This document shows positions 3,586 through 16,827 of a stretch of 45,686 nt of DNA, in pieces. The notes under the pieces are model-generated. The model did not search any database. It saw only the letters and a program-made list of their open reading frames with translations, and was not told where the DNA came from. Origin of the DNA: Opitutaceae bacterium (lineage in GTDB: Bacteria > Verrucomicrobiota > Verrucomicrobiia > Opitutales > Opitutaceae). Position numbers and translations under genes: made by a program. The DNA lies in NCBI GenBank assembly GCA_016794625.1, contig JAEUGY010000020.1, positions 1-45,686 of the forward strand, in the 5' to 3' direction. Positions within the stretch are counted from its first letter, which is position 1, and the number at the start of each line of letters is the position of its first letter.

Positions 3586-4707
3586 ATGATCATGAAGTTC
3601 CTTGTCGCACTGGTCGGCTTCGCGCTGGTCGTTTTATCCTTGGGCGCCGTCAAGATGTCCCAGTTCAAAGCCATGGCGGCGCAGATGCACGCGCCGCCCG
3701 CCGCCGCGGTGACCACGATCAAGGCGGAACTCGCCTCGTGGCGCCCAACCATCAATGCCATCGGCACCCTCGCCCCGGTGGAAGGGGTGACGCTGGGGGC
3801 CGATGCCGACGGCACCGTCGTGCGCATCGCCGTGGAGAATGGCGCGGTGGTAAAGGAAGGGGACGCGCTGATCGAATTGGATACCTCCGTCGAGGCCGCC
3901 CAGCTCGCCGCCGCCGAAGCGCGTCTCGTGATTGCCCAGTTGGACCGCGACCGTGCGGTCAAGTTGCTCGCCAACGCCACGATCAGTCAGGCCGAGTTGG
4001 ATGCCGCGAACGCGCAGTTGAACCAGGCGGTCGCTGATAGCACGGCGTTGCGGGCGCTGATGGCGAAGAAAGTGGTGCGGGCTCCGTTCGCCGGTCGGGT
4101 GGGCATCCGCCTGGTCAATGTCGGACAGTTTGTGGCTCGCGGCGCCCCCTTGATGCCGATCCAGCGGCCCGACCCGATGTTCGTGAACTTCAATGTGCCG
4201 CAACGCCAGTTGCCGGAAATACAGGTTGGCCAGACCGTGCTCGTGAAGGTCGACGCCTATGGGGATCGTGTGTTCAAAGGCACGTTGAGCGCGATCAACC
4301 CGGCGGTGGATGCGGCCTCGCGCAACGTGTCCGTGCAGGCCACGATTGCCAACACGGACGAAACCCTTCGTTCCGGCATGTTCGCCCGGGTCGAAATCGA
4401 GAAACCGGTGGGCAAGCCGACCGTGGTGCTCCCGGCGACCTCCATCGCCTATGCCTCCTATGGCAACTCGGTTTACATCGTGGAAAAGATGAAAGGGGCC
4501 GACGGGGCCGAGTACCTGGGTGTGCGCCAGCAATTTGTGAAGCTGGGCGTGAGCCGGGGTGACCAGATCTCCGTGATTGAAGGCGTGAAGGAAGGGGAGG
4601 AAGTGGTCACCTCCGGTGTCTTCAAGCTCCGCAACGCGCTGCCTGTCCAGGTGAACAACACGGTCCAACCCGGCAACAATCCCGCGCCCAAACCGGCCAA
4701 CACCTGA
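3586..4707 (+). CDS. RND efflux periplasmic adaptor (membrane fusion protein)
   Basis: This is the HlyD/AcrA-type adaptor that links the inner-membrane RND pump with the outer-membrane channel in the periplasm. The protein has 373 residues, near the family average. It starts with a hydrophobic N-terminal segment (about residues 4-22) that anchors or exports it. A lipoyl/barrel-sandwich half follows (GTVVRIAVENGAVVKEGDALIELD), then a coiled-coil hairpin rich in Ala, Leu and Gln (about 105-160), the returning lipoyl half (VRAPFAGRVGIRLVNVGQFV) and beta-barrel and membrane-proximal domains (about 195-350). The RAPFAGRVG segment is diagnostic. It is second in the marR-adaptor-pump-channel operon. 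No lipobox Cys is visible, so it is probably held by an N-terminal membrane segment. Confidence 0.93.
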   Translation: MIMKFLVALVGFALVVLSLGAVKMSQFKAMAAQMHAPPAAAVTTIKAELASWRPTINAIGTLAPVEGVTLGADADGTVVRIAVENGAVVKEGDALIELDTSVEAAQLAAAEARLVIAQLDRDRAVKLLANATISQAELDAANAQLNQAVADSTALRALMAKKVVRAPFAGRVGIRLVNVGQFVARGAPLMPIQRPDPMFVNFNVPQRQLPEIQVGQTVLVKVDAYGDRVFKGTLSAINPAVDAASRNVSVQATIANTDETLRSGMFARVEIEKPVGKPTVVLPATSIAYASYGNSVYIVEKMKGADGAEYLGVRQQFVKLGVSRGDQISVIEGVKEGEEVVTSGVFKLRNALPVQVNNTVQPGNNPAPKPANT

Positions 4708-4788
4708 GTCGACGTCGTCCCGCGACCCAGCCCAGCCACGGTCCCGCGCCGCCCTTGCGTCGCGCCGTAGCCCAACCGGAGCGTACCC

Positions 4789-7700
4789 ATGAAATCTAGC
4801 TTTACCGACCTCTTTGTCCGCAAGCCCGTCATCGCGCTGGTGGTCAACATTGTCATCCTCGTGGTGGGTCTGGTTTCCTACCACCAGCTCAACATCCGTC
4901 AGTATCCGCGAAGCGACAGCGCCGTGGTCAATGTGACCACCGTCTATTTTGGAGCCAGCGCCGAAACGGTGCGTGGCTACATCACCACCCAGCTGGAGCG
5001 CGTCATCGCCAGTGCGGACGGCATCGATTACATCGAGTCCGAAAGCCGTTCCGGACTGAGCACGATCCGCGTGTACCTTCGGCTCAACTACGATACGAAC
5101 GCCGCGCTTGCCCAGATCAGTGCCAAGATCGACCAGGTGCGCAGCGAATTGCCGCCGGAGGCGGAGTCGCCCAGCATCAGCGTGGAGTCGAGCGACAACC
5201 AGTTCGCCTCGATGTACCTGAGTTTCTACTCCGACCAGCTGGAGCAGAATCAGATCACCGACTACCTCAACCGCGTCGTCCAGCCGCAGTTGTCCTCCAT
5301 CAAGGGGGTGCAGCGGGCCGACGTGCTCGGCGGCCGCATCTTTGCCATGCGCATCTGGCTCAAGCCGGAGGAGCTCGCCGCCCGGGGCATCAGCCCGTCG
5401 GAGGTGCGCCAGGCGCTCGCCAACAACAACGCGCTCGCCGCGGTGGGGGCGACCAAGGGTACGATGATGCAGATCAGTCTGGTGGCCAACACCGACCTGA
5501 AAAACATTCGTGAGTTTGAGCAACTCGTGGTGGCCGAGCGCAACGGAGCCATCGTCCGGCTCTCCGATGTGGCCGAGGTGGTCCTCGGGGCGGAAAGTTA
5601 CGACGACGAGGTGCGCTTTGGCGGGCAGAAGGCGACGTTTATGGGCATCTGGGTGCTGCCCACGGACTCCACGGTCGAGGTGATCAAGCGAGTGCGCGAC
5701 GCCATGCCGGGGATCGAAAGCCGGCTGCCCTCCGGGTTGAAGACCAAGATTGGATACGACGCGACGGGCTACATCGACGATGCCTTGAAGGAGATCGTGA
5801 CCACGCTGCTCGAGACGCTGCTGATCGTGGCCGTGGTGATCTTTTTCTTTCTCGGATCGCTGCGATCCGTGCTGATTCCGCTGGTGGCCATGCCGCTGTC
5901 GCTGATCGGCGCGATCTTCATCATGCTCGTGGCCGGTTTCACCATCAACCTGCTGACCCTGCTCGCGATCGTGCTGGCGGTGGGCATCGTGGTCGACGAC
6001 GCGATCGTCGTGGTCGAAAATGTCGAGCGACACATCCGCGAGGGGAGGACGCCGTTCGACGCGGCGATTCTCGGCGCGCGTGAATTGGTCGGGCCGGTCA
6101 TTTCCATGACCATCACGCTGGCCGCGGTCTACGCTCCGATCGGCTTCCAGGGTGGCCTCACCGGCGCCCTCTTCCGCGAGTTTGCCTTCACGCTCGCCGG
6201 CGCCGTCACGGTGTCGGGTTTTGTTGCACTGACGCTCTCACCGATGATGAGCGCCTACCTCCTGCATGGAAAGGAAGCGGAGGAGAAGGGATTGACCGGT
6301 CGCATCAACCGGGGGTTTGACGGCCTGCGCAATCTGTACGAGCGCGTGATCGGCTCGGTCCTCACGGGATGGAAGTCGGTGGTGGTGGTGCTTTCGATTC
6401 TGTTCACCTTGTTGCTGGCTCCGTTCTTCATGCTGGCCCAAAGCGAACTCGCTCCGAAGGAGGATCAGGGCGTGGTCTTCAGCATTCTGCTGCCTTCGCC
6501 CACCTCGACCACCGACCAGAATCTGATCTTTTCGGAGGAGGTGCAGAAGATGTTCGAGTCGTTCCCGGAATACTCGAACTCGTTCCAGATCACCGGTGCG
6601 AACTTCGGATTCGGTGGAGCCATCCTAAAGCCGTGGTCGGAGCGTTCGCGTACCTCGCTTGAGATTGAGCAGGCACTCATTCCTCTCGCGGCCCGGATCG
6701 CGGGATTGAACGTGATCATGACCACTCCGGAGCCGCTGCCGTCGGGTGGACAGTTCCCGATCGAGTTCGTCCTCCGTTCAACGGCGGACCACAGCCAGAT
6801 GGTGGAGTTCGCGAACCAGCTGGTGATCTATGCCAATTCCGAGGCGAACGATCCCAATGGCGCGCCGACCTTCTACTTCGCCGACAGCGACCTGAAGTTC
6901 GATCTGCCCCAGTTCGAAATCGACATCGACAAGGATCTGGTGGCGGCCATGAACCTCAGCCTGACGGATGTCGCGCGGGATCTGGGATCCCTCTTGGGCG
7001 GAGGTTATGTCAACCGGTTCGTGAATGACGGCCGAAGCTATCGCGTCATCCCGCAGGTCACCCGGGGAGACCGCCTCAATGCCGACCAGCTCCTCGACTA
7101 CCATATTCGAGGACCGCAGGGTGAACTCATCCCGCTTTCCACCATCGCCACGCTGCGCGAAACGGTGCAGCCGCGGACGCTCAATCGGTTTCAGCAGCTT
7201 AACTCCGTCAAGATCACCGGGGTCGGCCCCAGTATTGACGGAGCTCTCAAAAAGCTGGAGGCGAAGGCGGCCGAGATTCTGCCGCCGGAGTATTCCGTCG
7301 ACTACGGTGGTCAGTCCCGACAGCTGCGCAACGAAGGTGCCGCCTTGTGGAAGGCGGGTGTCCTGGCGCTGCTGCTGATCTTCCTCGTACTGGCGGCGCA
7401 GTTCAACAGCTTCCGCGATCCGTTCATCATCCTGCTCGGATCGGTGCCGCTGGCCCTGGTGGGCGCAATGCTGCCGATCTTCCTCTGGAAGACCACGCTG
7501 AACATCTACTCCCAGATCGGTCTCATCACCTTGGTCGGATTGATCGCCAAGAACGGCATTCTGATCGTCGAGTTTGCCAACACGCTTCAGGAACAAGGGG
7601 TTTCGAAGATCGATGCCGCCCGGCGGGCGGCTGCGACCCGTCTGCGGCCGGTTTTGATGACCTCGGCCGCGACGGTGTTCGGTCACTTGATGCTCATCTT

Positions 7701-7893
7701 TGTCACGGGTCCCGGAGCCGCCGCGCGTAATAGCATCGGTTGGGTCTTGGTGGTTGGCATGGCGGTTGGCACGTTCTTCACTCTGTTTGTCGTGCCGACC
7801 TTCTATCTGTTGATTGCCCGTGATCACTCGAAAGGCCGTTCCCTGGAGGCTTCCTCCTTGCTGGTGGGCGGCGACGAAGCGGTTTCCAAATAA
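4789..7893 (+). CDS. RND-family efflux pump, inner-membrane transporter (AcrB/MexF-like)
   Basis: This is a proton-driven resistance-nodulation-division pump of the HAE1 type with 1034 residues, the family's standard size. It exports hydrophobic or amphiphilic compounds through the adaptor and channel encoded beside it. TM1 is at about residues 14-32. The first large periplasmic loop runs to about 335 and the TM2-6 cluster to about 480. The proton-relay pair in TM4 is visible as D403 and D404 in VGIVVDDAIVVVENVER. The relay Lys of TM10 lies in LIAKNGILIVEFAN near the C-terminus. GGAG precedes the start by about 8 bases. The channel gene starts one base after the stop, so the two are co-translated. 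The substrate cannot be predicted. Metal-pump (CusA-type) signatures are not seen. Confidence 0.95.
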   Translation: MKSSFTDLFVRKPVIALVVNIVILVVGLVSYHQLNIRQYPRSDSAVVNVTTVYFGASAETVRGYITTQLERVIASADGIDYIESESRSGLSTIRVYLRLNYDTNAALAQISAKIDQVRSELPPEAESPSISVESSDNQFASMYLSFYSDQLEQNQITDYLNRVVQPQLSSIKGVQRADVLGGRIFAMRIWLKPEELAARGISPSEVRQALANNNALAAVGATKGTMMQISLVANTDLKNIREFEQLVVAERNGAIVRLSDVAEVVLGAESYDDEVRFGGQKATFMGIWVLPTDSTVEVIKRVRDAMPGIESRLPSGLKTKIGYDATGYIDDALKEIVTTLLETLLIVAVVIFFFLGSLRSVLIPLVAMPLSLIGAIFIMLVAGFTINLLTLLAIVLAVGIVVDDAIVVVENVERHIREGRTPFDAAILGARELVGPVISMTITLAAVYAPIGFQGGLTGALFREFAFTLAGAVTVSGFVALTLSPMMSAYLLHGKEAEEKGLTGRINRGFDGLRNLYERVIGSVLTGWKSVVVVLSILFTLLLAPFFMLAQSELAPKEDQGVVFSILLPSPTSTTDQNLIFSEEVQKMFESFPEYSNSFQITGANFGFGGAILKPWSERSRTSLEIEQALIPLAARIAGLNVIMTTPEPLPSGGQFPIEFVLRSTADHSQMVEFANQLVIYANSEANDPNGAPTFYFADSDLKFDLPQFEIDIDKDLVAAMNLSLTDVARDLGSLLGGGYVNRFVNDGRSYRVIPQVTRGDRLNADQLLDYHIRGPQGELIPLSTIATLRETVQPRTLNRFQQLNSVKITGVGPSIDGALKKLEAKAAEILPPEYSVDYGGQSRQLRNEGAALWKAGVLALLLIFLVLAAQFNSFRDPFIILLGSVPLALVGAMLPIFLWKTTLNIYSQIGLITLVGLIAKNGILIVEFANTLQEQGVSKIDAARRAAATRLRPVLMTSAATVFGHLMLIFVTGPGAAARNSIGWVLVVGMAVGTFFTLFVVPTFYLLIARDHSKGRSLEASSLLVGGDEAVSK

Positions 7894-7894
7894 C

Positions 7895-9235
7895 ATGATC
7901 TCCCGAATGACTCGCATCACCCTGGCTGGAGCACTGCTGCTGAGTGCGTCCCGCCTTCTGGCTCAGCCGGCGACGCCCCAAGCGGTGCCGGACTCGCTCG
8001 ATCTCAAGACGGCGGTGGCCTTTGCGTTGGAGAACAACTTCTCCATCCGGCAGGCGCGGGAACGCATCCGGCAGCAGGAGGGCGTCATGCTGGAGGTCAA
8101 GGCGCTGGGATTGCCGACCATCGGCGTCGGCGCCAGTTACCAGCGCAACGCCACCGAAATCTCCCAAACTTTCCCGGCGGACGACTCGCTCTGGCAGATT
8201 CAGATTCAGGCGAGGCAGGCCCTTTATGCCGGCGGCGCAATCAAGGCGGGTATCGCCGGGGCCGAGCGGGTGCGTGAGGCTGCGGTCTTGGAACTCCAGG
8301 GAATCATCAATGACTCCCTGCTACAGGTTCGGTCGCGTTTCTACGATGTCCTGCTCGCCCGAGAGAGCATCAAGGTGCGCGAGCAATCAGTCGCCCTGTT
8401 GCAGGAGCAGCTGAACAACGCGCGCAACCGGTTCGAGGCCGGAGCGTCCTCCAGCTTCGAAGTCCTGCGGGCCGAAGTCGCCCTCGCCAATGCGCAGCCT
8501 CCGCTCATCCAGGCCCGCAATGGCTATCGGATTGCCATCGAGGAACTGCGTCAGGCCTTGGGTTTCACCAACCGCGAGGGGGAAAACCTGCGAAAGACGC
8601 CCGAGTTCCTGGGCGAATTGACTTTTGAACCTGTGAGTTTTGACCTGCAGACGGCGCTGGACGCCGCCCGGGCGAATCGACCCGAATTGGCTCGTCTCGA
8701 CAAGTTGCAGGCGGCTCAGGAGGAAGGGGTGCGGAGAGCCCGCGCCGGCGCCCGCCCCGGGGTGGACTTGGTTGGGAGCTATCAGTGGCGTAAGGCAGGG
8801 GGGAGTGACTCATTCAGCGATGCCAGCGACGGCTGGCTGCTGGGGGTGCAGTCCCAGTGGAACATCTTTGACGGTCGGGCTACGGCCGGCCGGGTGGTGA
8901 AGGCTCGTTCCGCGCTGGCTCAGTCCCAGCTGGCTCGGAGCGAGGCCGAACTCGCGGTCGAAGTCGAGGTGCGCCGTTCGCTCTCCTCGCTCCAGGAGGC
9001 GGGAGAATTGGCCGAGGCCTCGCGCAAGGTCGTCGAGCAAGCCGCCGAGGCGCTTCGTCTGGCCACCGTCCGGCAGGCCGCCGGGACGGCCACGCAACTG
9101 GACGTGCTCACGAGCCAGGTGGACCTGACCCAGGCCCGCACGAACCAACTCACCGCGAATTACAATTACCTGGTCGCCATGGCCCGTCTGCGCAAAGCGA
9201 TGGGGCAGGCGGACCAGTTTGTTCCGGGCTCCTAG
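7895..9235 (+). CDS. outer-membrane efflux channel (TolC family)
   Basis: This is the predicted outer-membrane factor of the tripartite pump, 446 residues. The chosen ATG at 7895 gives a clear signal peptide (residues 1-24, basic start MISRMTR, hydrophobic core, cleavage near LLAQ-PAT). A longer in-frame start at 7814 lies inside the pump gene and lacks a signal. Two OEP repeats are visible. The first covers about residues 30-230, with long amphipathic helices rich in Ala, Gln and Arg (ALENNFSIRQARERIRQQE). The second covers about 240-440 and includes ARANRPELARL and the channel segment QSQWNIFDGRATAGRVVKAR. It is the last gene of the efflux operon. No lipoprotein Cys is evident. Confidence 0.93.
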   Translation: MISRMTRITLAGALLLSASRLLAQPATPQAVPDSLDLKTAVAFALENNFSIRQARERIRQQEGVMLEVKALGLPTIGVGASYQRNATEISQTFPADDSLWQIQIQARQALYAGGAIKAGIAGAERVREAAVLELQGIINDSLLQVRSRFYDVLLARESIKVREQSVALLQEQLNNARNRFEAGASSSFEVLRAEVALANAQPPLIQARNGYRIAIEELRQALGFTNREGENLRKTPEFLGELTFEPVSFDLQTALDAARANRPELARLDKLQAAQEEGVRRARAGARPGVDLVGSYQWRKAGGSDSFSDASDGWLLGVQSQWNIFDGRATAGRVVKARSALAQSQLARSEAELAVEVEVRRSLSSLQEAGELAEASRKVVEQAAEALRLATVRQAAGTATQLDVLTSQVDLTQARTNQLTANYNYLVAMARLRKAMGQADQFVPGS

Positions 9236-9330: not shown

Positions 9331-12300
9331 ATGAAACTCAAGCGCGTCCTCCTCTTTGGCTCGCTCGCGGTCTTGGTGCTGCTGGTGGCGTTGGTCGCGC
9401 TGGCGTTTAACTCGGGCGTGCAGACGTGGGCCGTCCGACGGGCCTTGAAGGGACAGCCGGATCTATCGGTTGAGGTCGGGCGAGTCTCCGTGGGGTTGCA
9501 GTCGGTGGTCTTGTCTCAGATCACGCTTCGGCAACCGGGACTGAAACTCACCCTCCCGGAGGTCACCTCTGAGCTCTCGGTGATCGACGCGGTCTCGCGC
9601 AAGGTTCGTGTGCGTCGGGTCAAGGCTCACGGCTGGACCCTCGATCTGACCGCTCCCGCTCCGCTCGCGGCCGGCGGCAGTCCTGAGCGCCGGGCCGTGG
9701 CGGGGTATTTCGCCGTCCTGTCCGGCGTCAACGGCAACGCCAGCGCCGCCCCCGCACCCAAGGCCGAGGCGTTCGCGGGGATTTTTGGGCTGCTCCGGCT
9801 GCCGGTGGAGCTCTCTCTGGAGGACGCGGATCTTGCCGGCGCCGTCATTTTTCCAACCGCTGCGGGCCAGCCGGCGGGGCGGGCGGTGGTGACCGTCACC
9901 GGTGGCAAGCTGGGTGCGGCACGCGAGGGACGCTTTCGCGTGGAGGCCAAGGCCGAGATGTCCGGTGCGGTCTCACAGCTGACGGCCACCAGCGACATCG
10001 GGTTGCGCATGGACGCGCCGGACTCGATTGATCGCGTCAGCGCGGTGACCGATCTGGTGGCCGTGGGATCGCGCTTTCCCGGGGGGGCCCGGCTGAAGGC
10101 GGCCCTGCTCGCCGAGCGAGGGGCTCAGGGCGTCGAAAATTACCGCGTGATGGTGGAGGCGGAACAAAAGGCGCTGCTCGATCTTCGGGCTCAACTCCCG
10201 GCCGGGGCGACCCAGCTGGGCGGCGCGATCGTGGTGTCGGTGCGGGACACCGATCTGGAGCCGTTTATCTTGGGACGCACGCTGCCTGCCTTTGCCGCCA
10301 CGGTGGACGCCAAGTTTGGGGTGACGACGAAGTTCGATGCGTTCAGTGCGCAGGGTGCGCTCGAAGTGGTGGCCAGTCGTCTCGAAGTGATCTCGCCGCA
10401 CCTAAAGCCAGTCGGAACGCTGTCCCTCGCATCCACCTTCGCCGTGGAACACACGCCCGATTTGCTGCGCGTCAACGCTCTGCAGGCGCGCGTCTCCGGT
10501 GCCGCCCCACTGGCTTCGATTGATGTGCGGCAGGCCTTCGGCTGGGTGCTCAAGACGGGTGAACTGAAAGTGGCGGATCCTGCGCGCGAATTGGTTTCGA
10601 TTTCGCTCGAAGGCGTGCCGCTCCCCTGGGCTCAGCCCTATCTGGAGGGAGTGGTGGTGGAAGGTGGAGACGCCCGCGGGAGTTTCCTCGTCCGGGCCGC
10701 GGGTGGAGGATACGCGATTCGCCCGCAGGTGCCTCTGACCCTTTCCCCCTTTTCTCTGTCGAAAGATGGCAAAGCGATCCTGCGCAACGTGGGGTTGACC
10801 GTGAGTGCCTCGGCCGATGTCACGCCGGACGCCTGGCAGGCGGAGGTAACGGAGTTGGTGGCACGCGAAGGTGCCACCACGCTGTGGTCGCTCAACGTCA
10901 AGGCCGGCCAAGCCGGAGGCGCCAAGCAGCCGCTCAAGGCCACGGGACGCCTTTCGGTGGATCTGCCCTCGGTGCTGACTCAACCGGTGGTGAACGGGGC
11001 CGCGGTGCTGTCGAGAGGAACCTTGCGCGGCGATTTTACCGCCAGTCTGGGCGCCACGCAGGAACTCGCCGCGCAACTGGTGGTATCGGATTTGGTTTCC
11101 GGCGTGGAGGAGCGTTTCCCCCGCGTCACCGTGGATCTCCGGGCGGACGTGCGAGCGGATGGCAGTTTTGTCGCCCGCGCGCCGATTCTGGTCGAGCGGG
11201 ACGATCGCAAGAGTGATGTGGTGGTGGGCGCATCGGGGCGGACCGAGAAGGAGGGCATCACCCTGGACGCGCAGGTGGCGAGCAACCGGATGTACCTGGA
11301 TGACGTCAAGATCCTGGGCGCACCGTTCGCCCTCGCCGGCTCCTCCGAACCCGCGACGCTGGGTTCGGCTCCCACCGCGCCGGACAAGGCTCCGGTCTGG
11401 AAGGGAGTCAGCGGGAAAATGTCACTCTCACTGGCCGAGGTGGTGTATTCACCCGACCTTACCATCCGTGATGTGACGGGCTCGGTGCGCATTGGACCGG
11501 CCGCGGTGACACTCGAAGCCCTCAAGGCGGTGCTGGGCACCGGGGGGCAGCTCGCGATGTCGGGAGGGCTGAAGTTTGATGCGTCAAACGTGGACGCCTA
11601 TCGACTGAAGGCGGACCTGGCCGTGGCGAATCTGGATTCCGGTTCAACGCTCAAGGCATTGAAGCCGAACAACGGACTTCCTCTGGTGGAGGGCACGTTC
11701 GACGTTAAGAGTTCGATTGATGCGACGTCGGGCAACTTGGGAACGCTGGCGGAAATGGCCCGGGGCGATGTCCGCATTTCCAGCAAGGGCGGCATCTTCC
11801 GTCCCTTGCCGGCGTCGTACCTGGAGACATTTGTCAACGCAAAGAACCAGCTGGCCAAACGCGGAGAACAGGCCGGGGCCCTGAGTGCCATTGCCGGAGT
11901 GATCGGCGCACGGCTGCCCAGCGCCCTGGGAGGCGCGGCCGGAAAAGCCCAGCAGCTCGTCGAGCGGATGAACGACCTGGAAGGAATTTTGCGGTTGATC
12001 GCTGAGGTTCGATTTGACCAGCTGACCCTGGACGTTGGCGGCGATAGTAAATTGGATACCGTTCTTCGCGACCTTACCGTCACCGCTCCGGAACTCCGCT
12101 TCGTCGGCACCGGTGGCTTGAAGTACCGTCCAAACGTTCCGCTGTGGAAACAAGCCTTGTCACTCAAGCTCACCGGCGCGGCGCGCGGTCGGGCGGCGGA
12201 AGTCATGAAGAAAGGGAATCTGCTCGGTGAATCGGTCGACAGCCTCGGCTACATCCCATTGTCGATGGATGTGAACATCGATGGAACAGCGGACAACCCG

Positions 12301-12429
12301 GACACCTCGAAACTCGTGGTCGCACTGGTCGACAAGGTGTTGGGTGTACAGCTGCAACCCGGCGATGTGGAGCGGATCCGCCAGGGTGACGTGCTGGTGC
12401 TTTTGAATGTGCTCGGTCAGCTGAAGTAG
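9331..12429 (+). CDS. AsmA-like large periplasmic protein anchored in the inner membrane
   Basis: This 1032-residue protein has one N-terminal membrane segment (about residues 5-26) and then a long chain dominated by alternating beta-strand patterns. The opening, a TM helix followed by a segment containing VEVGRVSVGLQSVVLSQITLRQPGLKLTLPEV, and the closing GTADNPDTSKLVV with a short Leu-rich tail resemble the AsmA/YhjG superfamily. Proteins of that group span the periplasm and are implicated in lipid transport or outer-membrane homeostasis. The family call rests on topology and N/C-terminal resemblance only. The gene lies 95 bases after the channel gene and may or may not be co-transcribed with it. 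Its 3' end overlaps the convergent rhombosortase gene by 13 bases. Confidence 0.65.
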   Translation: MKLKRVLLFGSLAVLVLLVALVALAFNSGVQTWAVRRALKGQPDLSVEVGRVSVGLQSVVLSQITLRQPGLKLTLPEVTSELSVIDAVSRKVRVRRVKAHGWTLDLTAPAPLAAGGSPERRAVAGYFAVLSGVNGNASAAPAPKAEAFAGIFGLLRLPVELSLEDADLAGAVIFPTAAGQPAGRAVVTVTGGKLGAAREGRFRVEAKAEMSGAVSQLTATSDIGLRMDAPDSIDRVSAVTDLVAVGSRFPGGARLKAALLAERGAQGVENYRVMVEAEQKALLDLRAQLPAGATQLGGAIVVSVRDTDLEPFILGRTLPAFAATVDAKFGVTTKFDAFSAQGALEVVASRLEVISPHLKPVGTLSLASTFAVEHTPDLLRVNALQARVSGAAPLASIDVRQAFGWVLKTGELKVADPARELVSISLEGVPLPWAQPYLEGVVVEGGDARGSFLVRAAGGGYAIRPQVPLTLSPFSLSKDGKAILRNVGLTVSASADVTPDAWQAEVTELVAREGATTLWSLNVKAGQAGGAKQPLKATGRLSVDLPSVLTQPVVNGAAVLSRGTLRGDFTASLGATQELAAQLVVSDLVSGVEERFPRVTVDLRADVRADGSFVARAPILVERDDRKSDVVVGASGRTEKEGITLDAQVASNRMYLDDVKILGAPFALAGSSEPATLGSAPTAPDKAPVWKGVSGKMSLSLAEVVYSPDLTIRDVTGSVRIGPAAVTLEALKAVLGTGGQLAMSGGLKFDASNVDAYRLKADLAVANLDSGSTLKALKPNNGLPLVEGTFDVKSSIDATSGNLGTLAEMARGDVRISSKGGIFRPLPASYLETFVNAKNQLAKRGEQAGALSAIAGVIGARLPSALGGAAGKAQQLVERMNDLEGILRLIAEVRFDQLTLDVGGDSKLDTVLRDLTVTAPELRFVGTGGLKYRPNVPLWKQALSLKLTGAARGRAAEVMKKGNLLGESVDSLGYIPLSMDVNIDGTADNPDTSKLVVALVDKVLGVQLQPGDVERIRQGDVLVLLNVLGQLK

Positions 12430-13097
12430 GCCATCCCGTCCGGGCCGTCCGGAGCGCGCGGGGTGCGACCGGGTTGGCGGGGCACGGGAGCAGGTCTGGT
12501 ACTGAGGGCAACCCCAAGCAGACCCACGACCGCCCCGACCAGATGGGCGAGCGGGACGGGTTGGAACCCCGCGTGCAGGGAGTCGACAAACAGCGTCGAC
12601 TGGTGCAGCTGCTCGAATAGGGACTTTCCGACAAAACCCAAGAGGGCGAGCAGACTGAGCGCCACGGTCGCGGGTCTCCGATCACGCGCCCCTTGCTGCA
12701 GAAGAGACGCGCACAGCCAGGCGTAAAGCGCCGAATCGATCCCGGACAGGCCCCGGTAGCGATCCAGTGTGGGTTGAAGCACCACCACTGCGACCGAGAT
12801 CGCCGCACCGCTCCACAGCCAAAGCTGGGTCAGGCTGCGCCTTCGGAGAGGCGCCACCCCGAGTGCACCCGATTCCATGGCCCCGCCGAGCACCAGCAAC
12901 ATGGCCACATCCCACGTTCCATGGGAGAGGCCGTAGTGCGTCAGGTGCCCGGTCCAGATCCGCCAGAGCTGGGCCTGTTGAAAGGCCGAGCGATCCAGCT
13001 CCAGTGCGGAGGCGGCCTCTGGAAAGGCGAGCAACGCGGAGGCGATGACCGCCAGTCCAAGGGTCAGCCAAGGCAGGCGACGCGGGGTGGTTTCCAT
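12417..13097 (-). CDS. rhombosortase (rhomboid-family intramembrane serine protease)
   Basis: Rhombosortases cleave the C-terminal GlyGly-CTERM tail of exported proteins in the inner membrane. This protein has 226 residues and about six hydrophobic segments. The first loop motif WRIWTGHLTHYGLSHGTWD (about 45-63) matches the rhombosortase version of the rhomboid L1/TM2 region. The catalytic Ser is S118 in YRGLSGIDSALYAW. The catalytic His is H185 in VPLAHLVGAVVG. The segment GFVGKSLFEQL (about 154-164) is also typical. An upstream in-frame start at 13181 would overlap the preceding gene by 34 bases and add a segment with no family match, so the ATG at 13097 was chosen. It lies 50 bases after a VIT/vWA gene whose product carries the expected tail. 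The C-terminus is a polar Pro/Arg-rich cytoplasmic extension. Confidence 0.85.
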   Translation of the reverse strand: METTPRRLPWLTLGLAVIASALLAFPEAASALELDRSAFQQAQLWRIWTGHLTHYGLSHGTWDVAMLLVLGGAMESGALGVAPLRRRSLTQLWLWSGAAISVAVVVLQPTLDRYRGLSGIDSALYAWLCASLLQQGARDRRPATVALSLLALLGFVGKSLFEQLHQSTLFVDSLHAGFQPVPLAHLVGAVVGLLGVALSTRPAPVPRQPGRTPRAPDGPDGMAYFS

Positions 13098-13147
13098 GGG
13101 CGGTGGGATGTTGGCAGTGGAACAAGCGGTGTGACTCGAGGGCGCGC

Positions 13148-15160
13148 TCAGCGTCGCCGACCGAGGGTGCGGCGTGAGCACAGCACCGCGGCGACCAGGA
13201 ATGCGATGAGCAGCGCGTTGACGAGGTCGGGACGGAGCGCCCCGCCTCCCGAGCCGCCACCGTGGTTGACGTGCGGCGCGGCGGCCGGAAAGGCCGGCTT
13301 CGCTGCATCCACACGGTAAGCCGTCGCCGGTTGCGTTGCCCGGGTCGCCTGCGCCTGGCGCTCCAGGGCGGTGCGCGCCTGATTGGACCGCTGCAGACCG
13401 CGACGCGCGAACGAGGCGTCATCCAGCAGCACCATCGAGGTGTGGTCGGTGACCAACTGGTAGGCCACGCCGAGCGCCTGGATGGCGTCCTTTGATTCAG
13501 AGGGCGGCAGGCTTCCGATCGACTCCTTCATTTCAATCTGCTCGATCTGGGCGAGGGCCCAGAGGCGCTCGATCTCCGGGTTGGTCGTGTCGACTTCCGG
13601 AAAGTCAAACGTCGTCGCATACGTCTTGTCCTCGCCGGTGAGTTTGGCCTTGAGCGTGACCGTCGCCTGGCCCGCTCCCTCGTAACGCCCGAAGAGGATC
13701 CACTGCTGCCCGCGATAGATTTTCTGCGGCAGTTCACCGGTGGTATCGAAAACTCGGACACCGGAGAAGCTGAATGAAGCGTCATGCAGCGATTCGTGCA
13801 CGACCTTGGACTTGGCCAGCATCAGCTGCCCGACAATGTCATCATCATTGCTGACCGCCGTAAAGGCGCCGCCGGTGGCATCGGCCAGGGTGCGCATGAG
13901 CGGCCAGTTCGCGCCATTGCCCATGAGGAAACCGAACACCCGCAGGTCCACCTGTTTCAACAGGCGATGAAAGGCCACGGGATCGACGAGTCCCTGGTTG
14001 GCCACGCCATCCGTGACGAGGATGAGGCTGGTGGCGCGGTCGGCATCGAGTCCCTGCAAGCCTTCGCGGATCCCTTCGTAGAGGTTGGTGCCGCCCGTGA
14101 CCGAGAGCGCCTTGACGGTGGCGATGGCCCGCTGGACCGATTCCGGAGCGGCGGGCGTCCACGGCACCAGCTCGCGCGCCGTCTGATTGAAGGTCACGAT
14201 GCGAAAGCGGTCCGAGGGTTTCATCTGGCCCAGGGCCTGGCTCACGCCCTGGGCGAGGGTGTGGATCTTGCCCTGCATGGAGCCGGAGGTATCCAAAACG
14301 AAGGCGAAATCGGCTCCCGTGGTGATGGGCTTCAAGTCGATGCCGGGTGTCACGACCATCATGAAGGTGCCCGGTTTCTTCGGATCCGCGCGATACGGAA
14401 TGACCTCCACGCGGCCGGGAAGGTTGTCGGCCAGCCGGTAGTAGAAGACAAAGTCGCGGTCGAGTCGCGCGCCGGTGCGATCCAAAGCCACCCGGACGTG
14501 GCCCGCATCGAGCGTCTGGATATTGGCGGCGGATTCGAACCCGGGTACACGGACGTCCGCCACCGGGGCGGCTGACTTCAGCTCCAGAGCGATCGAGAGA
14601 TTCCCTTCAACGACGGAGTTGGAAGTCCAGAAACTCCGGGCCACGTCGTCCGTGCCGCCGTCCTCCAGCGGATAGACATAACGTCCGACACCGAGGTCGA
14701 TTTCCAGCGGCTGGTAATAAACGAAGCGTAGTTTGATCTCACTCTGGGCCCGCACCGGGGCGATGCGAAACTCGTAGGTCTGGATGCCGTTCTTGGAGGC
14801 AAGTCCAGCGTCGTTGCCGGACTTCTTCTCCTCGGTGTAAATCGTCTCGGCCTCCTGCTTGGCCAACACCTCGCCTTGCAGTGTTTTCTCGCCGGTGGTC
14901 ACGGTCACCTCGGAAAGGCTGGCGCTCTTCGGGACCGGAAACGCATAGATCGCTTCCAGATCTTGGGCGTTGGGATTAAAGAAGGTTTGCAGCACCTCCG
15001 TTTGGGCAAAGCCGTTGTTCAGTGTCACGTGGACCTGATGATCGCGAATCGCGATGGGCTGCTGGGAAGAACCGAGCGGCGTGAGAGTGCCACCCGCCAT
15101 CAGCGGCCCGGACAGACCGGCCGCGCAGAGTGCCGAGAGAAAAAGAGAACGTAGTTTCAT
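13148..15160 (-). CDS. secreted VIT and von Willebrand A domain protein with GlyGly-CTERM-type tail
   Basis: This is a predicted exported protein of 670 residues. A signal peptide covers residues 1-22 (MKLRSLFLSALCAAGLSGPLMA). A VIT (inter-alpha-trypsin inhibitor) domain covers about 28-160, including the typical FFNPNAQDLEAIYAFPVP. A vWA domain covers about 280-450 with a complete MIDAS: DTSGS at 290-294, Thr in TGGTNLYEG near 358, and VTDG at 383-386. The last 41 residues are GGGSGGG (634-640), a hydrophobic helix, then a basic end RRTLGRRR. This is the layout of a GlyGly-CTERM sorting signal, and the next gene encodes the matching protease. AGGAGAG precedes the ATG by about 7 bases. Similar VIT/vWA proteins are known targets of marine proteobacterial sortases, but no LPXTG is present here. 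The ligand and final location are unknown. Confidence 0.88.
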   Translation of the reverse strand: MKLRSLFLSALCAAGLSGPLMAGGTLTPLGSSQQPIAIRDHQVHVTLNNGFAQTEVLQTFFNPNAQDLEAIYAFPVPKSASLSEVTVTTGEKTLQGEVLAKQEAETIYTEEKKSGNDAGLASKNGIQTYEFRIAPVRAQSEIKLRFVYYQPLEIDLGVGRYVYPLEDGGTDDVARSFWTSNSVVEGNLSIALELKSAAPVADVRVPGFESAANIQTLDAGHVRVALDRTGARLDRDFVFYYRLADNLPGRVEVIPYRADPKKPGTFMMVVTPGIDLKPITTGADFAFVLDTSGSMQGKIHTLAQGVSQALGQMKPSDRFRIVTFNQTARELVPWTPAAPESVQRAIATVKALSVTGGTNLYEGIREGLQGLDADRATSLILVTDGVANQGLVDPVAFHRLLKQVDLRVFGFLMGNGANWPLMRTLADATGGAFTAVSNDDDIVGQLMLAKSKVVHESLHDASFSFSGVRVFDTTGELPQKIYRGQQWILFGRYEGAGQATVTLKAKLTGEDKTYATTFDFPEVDTTNPEIERLWALAQIEQIEMKESIGSLPPSESKDAIQALGVAYQLVTDHTSMVLLDDASFARRGLQRSNQARTALERQAQATRATQPATAYRVDAAKPAFPAAAPHVNHGGGSGGGALRPDLVNALLIAFLVAAVLCSRRTLGRRR

Positions 15161-15297
15161 GACGATTCTCTCCTTTGCTTGGTCGATGCCAGTTTATCGC
15201 CGATTTTTTAAGCCGTTATCATATAGTATTTTAAGTGATGAAGGCTTTCGAAGGATCTTGGCACAGTTAACATTTACTGCTAGGCCTTGCACATAAA
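15161..15297. promoter_or_regulatory. AT-rich divergent promoter region with an imperfect palindrome
   Basis: This 137-base spacer separates the VIT/vWA gene (leftward) from the sigma-54 regulator (rightward) and is clearly richer in A and T than its surroundings. CAGTTAACATTTACTG at 15264-15279 is an imperfect palindrome of the form CAGTNAANNTTNACTG, about 20 bases before the regulator's start, and could be an operator. A TATGAT-like -10 lies on the minus strand near 15221, without a good -35. No convincing sigma-54 promoter was found (see rejected items). Confidence 0.4.
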
Positions 15298-16827
15298 ATG
15301 TCGAAAGTGCCTAGCTCTTTGTTGCCGGAGAAAGATCGAGGATTCGCCGAGGCGGTGGCGCGGGTGAATGCCGCCAACCCGTTCTTGCCTGAACGGATTG
15401 CCGCGGAACGGGAGGCGCTGGGGGACGAATTCCAGATGAAGGAAGCGGAGTGGAACACGAGGCCACCCTCGTCCCAGCCCAATCGAAATGTGGCCGCGAT
15501 CACGGCCCGGTGCGCGGGATTGATGGAACGGGTGCGGACGCTCCCTTCCGGACGGCGAGGCGGATCGGCGGCTGAGCGTGCGCTCTATGAGGAAGTGGCT
15601 GGATATTGGCTTTATCAGACGTATGCGGCGCGCTTTGACACGGTGATCCTCGCTTCGCTGGCCGGACAGGGGGATGAGGGACGCGTCAGCTTCTTTCCCG
15701 CCTTCAAGGCTGACGTCGAGCGGGTCCTGCAGGTCCCGGGCTGGGAGCCGGCCGAGAGTCAATCGGCGGCGCACCTGTTCTCCTGTGCGTTCCAGATCCG
15801 GCGGGCCTTTCACGCCATCTTTCGTTCCCTGGTCGGCGGATCCGCGCCCATGGCCCGGTTGCGCGCGGAGATCTGGCAGTCGATTTTCGGACATGATCTC
15901 GGGAGGTATCGGCGTGGTCTTTACGCTCGCATGGGAGACTTCTCGACGCTGATCACCGGTCCTTCCGGCACCGGCAAGGAGCTGGTGGCCCGTGCGCTGG
16001 CGTTCTCGCGCTACCTCGCGTTTGATTCCCGGCGGGGTAGTTTCGGGAGCGACTTCGCCCGCGGATTCTTCCCGCTCAACCTCGCTGCGCTGTCTCCCAC
16101 GCTCATCGAATCCGAGCTGTTTGGACACAAACGTGGCGCCTTCACCGGGGCCTTGAGCGACCGGGCAGGCTGGATGGAGGTCTGCCCGGCGACGGGTGCG
16201 GTGTTCCTCGACGAGATTGGCGACGTGGAAAACTCCATCCAGGTGAAGCTGCTGCGGGTGCTGCAGTCGCGCACGTTCCAGCCCCTGGGCAGCACGGAGT
16301 CGCGGCGGTTCGAGGGAAAGATCGTGGCCGCCACCCATCGAAACCTGCCGGAGGAGATTCTTGCGGGACGTTTCCGCGAGGATTTCTACTTCCGACTTTG
16401 CTCGGATCAACTGACGACGCCCTCCCTTCGGGCACAGCTCGATGATTCACCGGCTGATTTGCTGACGCACGTGACCCACATGACCGCCCGGCTGCTGGAA
16501 CCGGAGGAAGTCGAGCGCTTTTCTCGGCGCGCGGTCTCGTGGATCGAAAGCAATCTTGGAGGCAATTACCCTTGGCCTGGCAATGTACGCGAGTTGGAAC
16601 AATGCGTGCGGAGCCTCGTCCTCCGCGGCCACTACCGTCCGGCCGTCGGATTGAGCGGGGCGTCCGGCGAGGACTGGATTTCCGATCTGCGTGCGGGCCG
16701 CATGACCGCCGAAGACGTGCTCCGCCGCTATACCCGCCTCGTGCACGCACAGGCAGGGACCGTAGAGGAGACCGCCCGGCGCCTTGACCTCGATCGACGC
16801 ACGGTCAAGGCGCGTCTCGCGTCCTAA
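15298..16827 (+). CDS. sigma-54-dependent transcriptional activator (AAA+ enhancer-binding protein)
   Basis: Proteins of this class bind upstream of sigma-54 promoters and use ATP to open the promoter complex. The protein has 509 residues. The first 200 or so match no receiver, PAS, GAF or V4R domain that I recognise. The AAA+ core follows: Walker A GPSGTGK (221-227), an intact sigma-54 contact loop GAFTGA (280-285) within ESELFGHKRGAFTGA, Walker B VFLDEIGD (302-309), and sensor region DFYFRL near 362. The segment between Walker A and GAFTGA carries several extra residues compared with NtrC. A short C-terminal helix-turn-helix (VEETARRLDLDRRTVKARL, about 489-507) should bind DNA. It is divergent from the VIT/vWA-rhombosortase pair. 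Its stop overlaps the convergent phytase-like gene in a CTAA. Confidence 0.9.
   Translation: MSKVPSSLLPEKDRGFAEAVARVNAANPFLPERIAAEREALGDEFQMKEAEWNTRPPSSQPNRNVAAITARCAGLMERVRTLPSGRRGGSAAERALYEEVAGYWLYQTYAARFDTVILASLAGQGDEGRVSFFPAFKADVERVLQVPGWEPAESQSAAHLFSCAFQIRRAFHAIFRSLVGGSAPMARLRAEIWQSIFGHDLGRYRRGLYARMGDFSTLITGPSGTGKELVARALAFSRYLAFDSRRGSFGSDFARGFFPLNLAALSPTLIESELFGHKRGAFTGALSDRAGWMEVCPATGAVFLDEIGDVENSIQVKLLRVLQSRTFQPLGSTESRRFEGKIVAATHRNLPEEILAGRFREDFYFRLCSDQLTTPSLRAQLDDSPADLLTHVTHMTARLLEPEEVERFSRRAVSWIESNLGGNYPWPGNVRELEQCVRSLVLRGHYRPAVGLSGASGEDWISDLRAGRMTAEDVLRRYTRLVHAQAGTVEETARRLDLDRRTVKARLAS

Follow-up and report, generated by a model that had tools for sequence, protein, structure and literature searches.

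A rhombosortase beside what looks like its only target, a VIT/vWA protein with a glycine-rich tail, and a divergent sigma-54 activator in Opitutaceae

In the genome of an Opitutaceae bacterium (assembly GCA_016794625.1), contig JAEUGY010000020.1 carries a gene for a VIT/vWA protein with a glycine-rich C-terminal tail, directly followed by a gene for a small rhomboid-type membrane protein, and the locus thus raises the question of whether the second protein is a sorting enzyme reserved for the first. We refer to the whole stretch that was analysed, 45,686 nucleotides (nt; positions 1 to 45,686 of the contig), as the window; the genome that holds it measures 6.4 Mb and is 95% complete. As described below, the enzyme and its neighbour look like a dedicated pair belonging to an old cassette, which in many lineages is likely to be completed by a divergently transcribed sigma-54-dependent activator.

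The small membrane protein, taken for a rhombosortase in a preliminary description of this DNA, indeed scores 102.3 bits against TIGR03902 (an NCBIfam equivalog model; cut-off 84), and its gene is the only one of the three genomic matches to this model that lies over the cut-off (103 bits). Its predicted structure (predicted local distance difference test score, pLDDT, 93) finds its best solved match in Escherichia coli GlpG (E 2.2e-5; template modelling scores 0.62/0.66). Rhombosortases share a catalytic Ser and His with WRxxS/T and AHxxGxxxG motifs (PMC3237569), and the window enzyme shows the catalytic Ser (GLSG), the His (AHLVGAVVG), WRIWT, which is of the WRxxS/T type, and KxxxE. Ser111 and His178, in domain numbering, are invariant in 15 aligned rhombosortase domains; the S118 and H185 of the preliminary description are the right numbers for a protein starting at ATG 13097. 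"Virtually all rhombosortases" are stated to have a further His four residues past the catalytic Ser, SGxxH (PMC3237569). Because this His is a Ser in the window (SGIDS), we treat the enzyme as a variant: as judged by the full-length model, it is a variant rhombosortase and not a canonical SGxxH member. Cutting of a GlyGly-type tail by this enzyme is a prediction.

The VIT/vWA protein matches PF08487 (93.3 bits) and three VWA models (50.7-54.1 bits), and its metal ion-dependent adhesion site (MIDAS) is complete, with D290, S292, S294, T358 and D384 invariant in an alignment of 15 VIT/vWA proteins. The nearest solved relatives by sequence are the inter-alpha-trypsin inhibitor heavy chains H4 (E 2.7e-38) and H1 (E 6.9e-30). 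The structure prediction (mean pLDDT 79.5) has a linker of low confidence and then a helix spanning residues 645-668, which falls in the C-terminal tail HGGGSGGGALRPDLVNALLIAFLVAAVLCSRRTLGRRR, consisting of GGGSGGGAL, a hydrophobic helix and then RRR. This tail, with a hydropathy of 2.84, seven Gly/Ser residues before the helix, a net charge of +5 after it and no Cys in the motif, has the GlyGly-CTERM layout of glycine motif, hydrophobic helix and basic C-terminus, so that the tripartite architecture proposed earlier stands. Its assignment to the GlyGly-CTERM type stands in layout and fails in the model check, since TIGR03501, the GlyGly-CTERM model, gives no match at the tail in the genome search. 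Sixteen such tails match 15 families in all, and TIGR03501 is not one of them; six of the 16 match MprA_tail TIGR03867 (best E 7.4e-5). Because TIGR03501 finds no match, we treat the tail as a signal that would work like GlyGly-CTERM and yet is not a member of that family. The tail lacks LPXTG, and against the marine sortase target model TIGR03788 the protein reaches 207.2 bits over the shared regions, with a cut-off of 551.65.

Is this the only target in the genome? A profile of 16 such tails, run against the six-frame translated genome with 150 of the 278 first-look candidates scored, finds one strong place, the window tail itself (E 4e-17; next 0.12), which agrees with the dedicated pair supposed in the preliminary description. 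To judge by this search, a single target per genome is the best reading for the window rhombosortase, and the pair looks dedicated. TIGR03501 was dropped as a genome-wide target finder, as it returned VPDSG/VPDLG-type tails alone, all below the cut-off, at three places elsewhere in the genome (L004, L005 and L006, on contigs C76, C108 and C99). These tails, which we take to be exosortase-type sorting signals, suggest a separate exosortase-type sorting system in the same genome.

The pair is conserved well beyond the window. A VIT/vWA profile matches 19 of 76 related genomes, and a rhombosortase adjoins in 17 of the 19, the other two being a fragment at a contig edge (G034) and a weak match (G065). 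Among 387 Verrucomicrobiota genomes, 31 hold a VIT/vWA protein at E 1e-100 or better; the gene adjoins a rhombosortase in 29 of them, 22 with an enzyme of the window's type (A) and seven with another type (D; both are defined below), and in the last two, G034 and G234, it stands at the end of its contig. A scan of a genome collection with an active-site pattern yielded 71 named loci. In 63 of them the rhombosortase is preceded, on the same strand, by a VIT/vWA gene, with at most about 0.85 kb between the two frames. Seven of the eight unpaired loci end about 420 nt or less from the rhombosortase frame, and pairing is thus 63 of 64 where upstream sequence exists. As the scan pattern fixes SG[LI]DS, these 71 loci cannot show conservation of that motif, which the model-based sets can. 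In Pirellulales, the enzyme occurs in 43 of 396 genomes; at the 28 loci examined, a VIT/vWA gene is found in 25, a contig edge in two and no such gene in one (L291, in G594), and in one Pirellulales genome a pair of the window type is its only match. In G594, the A-type rhombosortase (L321, 3339-6265) stands beside an activator-like frame and a short frame with a tail-like hydrophobic-basic end, and the locus is probably a decayed cassette with the remains of a lost VIT/vWA gene.

Named loci close to the window on the enzyme tree include Opitutaceae, and the pair occurs in Verrucomicrobiota, Planctomycetota and other phyla. Because a VIT/vWA gene adjoins a rhombosortase in 29 of 31 Verrucomicrobiota and in other phyla, the pair looks, from its distribution, like an old cassette and not like a local swap; the idea that such a target had switched here from a sortase to a rhomboid protease finds no support. 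A search of viral contigs with the rhombosortase found no relative. On plasmids, the rhombosortase has one weak partial match and the VIT/vWA protein matches 49 records, with 22-26% identity among the 15 matches listed, several of which are annotated as marine sortase targets.

Enzymes and tails vary together. From the genes upstream of the enzymes four types can be read, with tail classes resting on loose patterns: type A, mostly SG[ILV]D, has a VIT/vWA target with a GGG[A/P] tail; type B, mostly SGxAxG, a lipoprotein target with a PGYTGGG-like tail; type C, S[A/G]x[N/D], assorted targets with GGGGAPSxWF-like tails; and type D, SGxAH or SGLDH, a VIT/vWA target with a GPVG tail. Among 118 distinct VIT/vWA pairs (sequence duplicates dropped, as well as L052, whose motif is unreadable), the SGxxH His goes with GPVG tails in 8 of 8, and with GGG[A/P] tails the residue is S, T, C, L or A and never His, in 108 of 108; two pairs have no readable tail class, being extended (L048) or broken (L137). 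Of the 110 pairs with other than a GPVG tail, 106 have Asp just before the His position, two have Asn and two Gly. In a tree of 122 domains, C and D form single groups (support 100/99) and B a weak one (83/41), with A as the backbone; the tree holds no canonical gammaproteobacterial rhombosortase and is therefore unrooted, so that it does not give the order of events. Because C and D are single groups, the association of the His with the tail amounts to one or two evolutionary events, not many. The seven D enzymes score 63-94 bits against TIGR03902, four over the cut-off and three below. We had expected a VIT/vWA protein without an A-type enzyme to have no rhombosortase, and this was wrong: the seven cases adjoin these divergent SGxxH enzymes and carry GPVG tails.

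The C-type system bears on whether the window enzyme might instead be a general rhombosortase acting on several substrates, with tails that the models used would miss. C-type tails number 16 in genome G011, 10 in G013, nine each in G035 and G048, two in G018 and one in G045, and there are no matches in G000, G001, G012 and G028; by these counts, type C goes with many targets in several genomes. Related enzymes may thus go with up to 16 tails per genome, the tails are short and divergent, and the tail search scored 150 of the 278 first-look candidates. A general enzyme is nevertheless very improbable in our estimation, as the window's own genome has one strong A-type tail and, with 87 of 87 candidates given a score, no C-type match at E 0.01, and the enzyme lies directly behind its target, an arrangement typical of single-target genomes (PMC3237569). 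The covariation of tail and enzyme also bears on the simplest view of the tail, namely that of a plain C-terminal membrane anchor beside a protease with another substrate. The absence of a TIGR03501 match and the predicted status of the cleavage would be in keeping with it; a conserved glycine motif is needless for a simple anchor, the adjacency is near-obligate across phyla and the tail type changes with the enzyme type, and we give a plain anchor hardly any credence.

Several other loci depart from these arrangements. At L058 (G023, 4959-7542), tandem rhombosortases, one B-like and one C-like, lie behind a protein that weakly resembles metalloproteases and bears a C-type tail. At L069 (G035) a C-type rhombosortase is directly preceded by two large frames in a row, whose C-type tails are nearly identical. 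The extended VIT/vWA protein of L048 (G016, 5660-8089) has a GGGAIEP tail followed by about 100 more residues with a second hydrophobic stretch, and its enzyme reads LSAIDT. One genome pairs a B-type enzyme with the rhombotarget lipoprotein TIGR04179 instead of a VIT/vWA protein. At L315 (G919), in a sample from the phylum of a Desulfobulbaceae metagenome-assembled genome, a B-like rhombosortase (SGLVVG) follows a lipoprotein-like frame with a GGGSVD tail, from which the B type seems not to be confined to Opitutaceae.

On the other side of the pair, the window encodes a protein with a Sigma54_activat domain and a GAFTGA motif. Clustering of the neighbours of the 63 named pairs shows that such an activator recurs in 39 loci; a second cluster, in 31 loci, mirrors it in antisense, with 40 of its 40 frames lying opposite activator frames, and no other cluster occurs in more than five of the 63. 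Under a strict rule, which asks for a divergent match above 250 bits no more than 400 nt away and for 1.2 kb or more of upstream sequence, an activator is present in 34 of the 56 named loci with room. Over all sets, 67 of the 108 pairs with a VIT/vWA 5' end have an activator match, divergent in 67 of 67. The loci are partly redundant, and among the 67 are L039 and L082, which score below 50 bits, and L084, where the match lies 2.1 kb off. As a control, the activator stands beside 13 of 17 A pairs in relatives versus 1 of 21 B or C loci; the one exception, L050 (G068), is a B-type locus with a lipoprotein-like target and a 501-bit match. Of the 68 distinct activator frames with scores above 250 bits, 65 contain a GAFTGA-type motif and 62 have an NPF motif close to the N-terminus.

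Promoter elements of the -24/-12 kind accompany the activator. With start codons picked by rule of thumb, a score of at least 8/11 is reached in 44 of the 65 loci in whose surrounding DNA an activator match occurs at any position (opposite strand 5 of 65; 4.8 expected from shuffles) and in 9 of 33 loci without one (opposite strand 1 of 33; 2.5 expected). Fourteen Opitutaceae loci, the window included, share the element TGGCA[T/C] ... GC[A/T] 24-60 nt ahead of the VIT/vWA start codon. An alignment of two promoter sequences gave no useful information. These comparisons of gene neighbourhoods make it likely that the divergent activator completes a three-gene module in many lineages, and the connection with sigma-54 hints at the way in which the system is turned on. 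Among the papers that we searched, none joins rhombosortase with sigma-54.

The explanation that we consider probable is a dedicated sorting cassette, in which an activator-switched operon provides the VIT/vWA protein and its rhombosortase, the tail is cut and the new C-terminus is joined to the envelope. The activator would turn on the divergent operon; a signal peptide would export the VIT/vWA precursor, which the C-terminal helix would hold in the inner membrane; and the private rhombosortase would cut the glycine motif, leaving a small residue exposed, around the junction of GGG and AL or that of GGA and L, by analogy with the cut between SGG and S in VesB of Vibrio. The new C-terminus may then be joined to an envelope lipid or polymer, as in VesB, which after rhombosortase processing has a C-terminal glycerophosphoethanolamine-containing moiety and a surface location (PMC6219818), and the VIT/vWA protein would stay in the envelope or on the surface. 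In Vibrio, tail and rhombosortase suffice for membrane association, and crossing of the outer membrane needs a second signal (PMC13393428). Gene order, protein families, a single strong tail, conservation of the module, an enriched promoter motif and the matching of enzymes to tails form the observed basis, and operon transcription, cleavage, cut site, C-terminal partner, location and an adhesive role are what we infer. Attachment is the least supported step, and for this reason our confidence goes no higher.

It is at this step that the dedicated protease might instead shed the VIT/vWA protein, with soluble release and no attachment to lipid or polymer. Rhomboid proteases are hydrolases, and no attachment enzyme recurs beside the pair, where neighbours other than the activator and its antisense counterpart are limited to the small clusters mentioned above. 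Cleavage of VesB by GlpG, moreover, yields a fully soluble protein (PMC11389362). The modified, surface-located VesB produced by rhombosortase speaks against such a release, as do the LPXTG or PEP-CTERM tails that relatives of the VIT/vWA substrate bear elsewhere (PMC3237569), and we regard shedding as rather unlikely.

A number of observations weigh against the sorting cassette. Besides the Ser at the SGxxH position and the TIGR03501 result, these include a true orphan, the rhombosortase of L134 (a Phycisphaeraceae metagenome-assembled genome), with no VIT/vWA gene upstream, and the orphan A-type enzyme of G594; the distance matrices of the two proteins show a modest correlation, with a Mantel r of 0.29 (98 pairs; 0 of 2000 permutations as high). 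On the regulatory side, 41 of the 108 pairs have no activator match, the window element, at 8/11, carries little weight by itself (p 0.09), its distance of just 31 nt from the ATG would imply a very short leader, and some relatives, e.g., L036 and L037, have no good promoter motif. As to the cut, VesB with Ala right after it shows almost no activity (printed as ">1" % in Table 1), and the Vibrio system does accept Ala at the cut position (PMC11389362). Ala is invariant in 16 aligned A-type tails, so that either the register or the enzyme specificity must differ here. Finally, a Vibrio-like type II route is only putative, because the GspD matches in the genome, to secretin-like proteins, stay below the cut-off (best 301.2 versus 351.35 bits).

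The features of the locus are collected in Table 1. The open frame of the rhombosortase spans 12417-13181, from a GTG at 13181, with the ATG further inside, 50 nt from the VIT/vWA stop. A convergent gene (9331-12429) encoding a 1032-amino-acid protein, for which no Pfam match was found at E 0.1, overlaps the end of the rhombosortase gene by 13 nt. Farther along (3586-9235) lies a resistance-nodulation-division efflux set of membrane fusion protein, AcrB-type pump and outer membrane efflux protein.

Table 1. Positions in the window of the pair, its activator and the elements discussed
Feature	Position	Strand	Description
VIT/vWA gene	13148..15160	-	670 amino acids; signal peptide by inspection; MIDAS motif; presumed single substrate
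C-terminal tail of VIT/vWA protein	13151..13276	-	GGGSGGGAL, hydrophobic stretch, basic end
Rhombosortase gene	12417..13097	-	226 amino acids from ATG 13097; GLSGIDS Ser, AHLVGAVVG His, WRIWT, KxxxE
Sigma-54-dependent activator gene	15298..16827	+	AAA+ with GAFTGA; divergent from the pair; PF00158 151.5 bits
Candidate sigma-54 -24/-12 element TGGCATCGACCAAGCA	15176..15191	-	31 nt upstream of the VIT/vWA start codon

The central idea of the preliminary description, whose interpretation is partly right, had largely been published. Haft and Varghese (2011) reported that single-target genomes tend to have rhombosortase and target adjacent, listed dedicated pairs in their Table 3, including Opitutus terrae and Rhodopirellula baltica, and noted in the legend of Fig. 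3C that VIT/vWA proteins occur with GlyGly, PEP or LPXTG tails (PMC3237569). As in the window, the rhombosortase of those pairs adjoins its only target, and the passages describing them mention neither a sigma-54 activator nor a matching of tail to active site. The RssP/VesB system of Vibrio cholerae likewise combines a rhomboid-family enzyme with a glycine-rich tripartite tail, but with six GlyGly-CTERM proteins per genome (PMC13393428) and an SGGS tail, whereas the window has one VIT/vWA protein, GGGAL and SGIDS. The marine sortase targets of TIGR03788 are VIT/vWA substrates in one-to-one cassettes with an adjacent sortase (PMC3237569); they differ in having an LPXTG tail and a sortase in place of a glycine-rich tail and a rhomboid enzyme, and the window protein stays far under their cut-off. 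The PEP-CTERM/exosortase system with PrsK/PrsR (Haft 2006, PMC1569441) is likewise under a sigma-54 activator and has -24/-12 sites upstream of its substrates; there the regulator is of the two-component kind and the substrates are many, whereas the window has an activator with an unassigned N-terminal part, divergent from a single pair. The B-type system of TIGR04179 also has a single target upstream of its rhombosortase, but the target is a lipoprotein with a PGYTGGG-like tail, the enzyme is mostly SGxAxG and the activator is rare, as the control above shows. The sigma-54 module of three genes, the distribution of the cassette and the correspondence between types of enzyme and of tail look like additions to this. 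In at least two genomes, moreover, a private pair coexists with a many-target rhombosortase whose tail differs: G011 and G013 have an A pair together with the C-type enzyme and its 16 and 10 matching tails. We count this too as an addition.

These two genomes provide a natural test of rhombosortase specificity. As the current GlyGly-CTERM model misses the tail, annotation that relies on this model overlooks such substrates. More broadly, the pair represents a minimal rhombosortase system, with one enzyme and one substrate, outside the Vibrio/Shewanella setting. A bolder and doubtful extension would make the locus a self-contained, sigma-54-switched envelope-attachment unit, made up of the activator, a bacterial relative of the inter-alpha-trypsin inhibitor heavy chains and a private intramembrane protease that would link the new C-terminus of this protein to a lipid or polymer of the envelope, with active-site motif and tail serving as a specificity code that lets private and shared systems work without crosstalk. 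The heavy chains of animal inter-alpha-trypsin inhibitor are linked via their C-terminus to polysaccharide, and such a unit, if real, would parallel this linkage.

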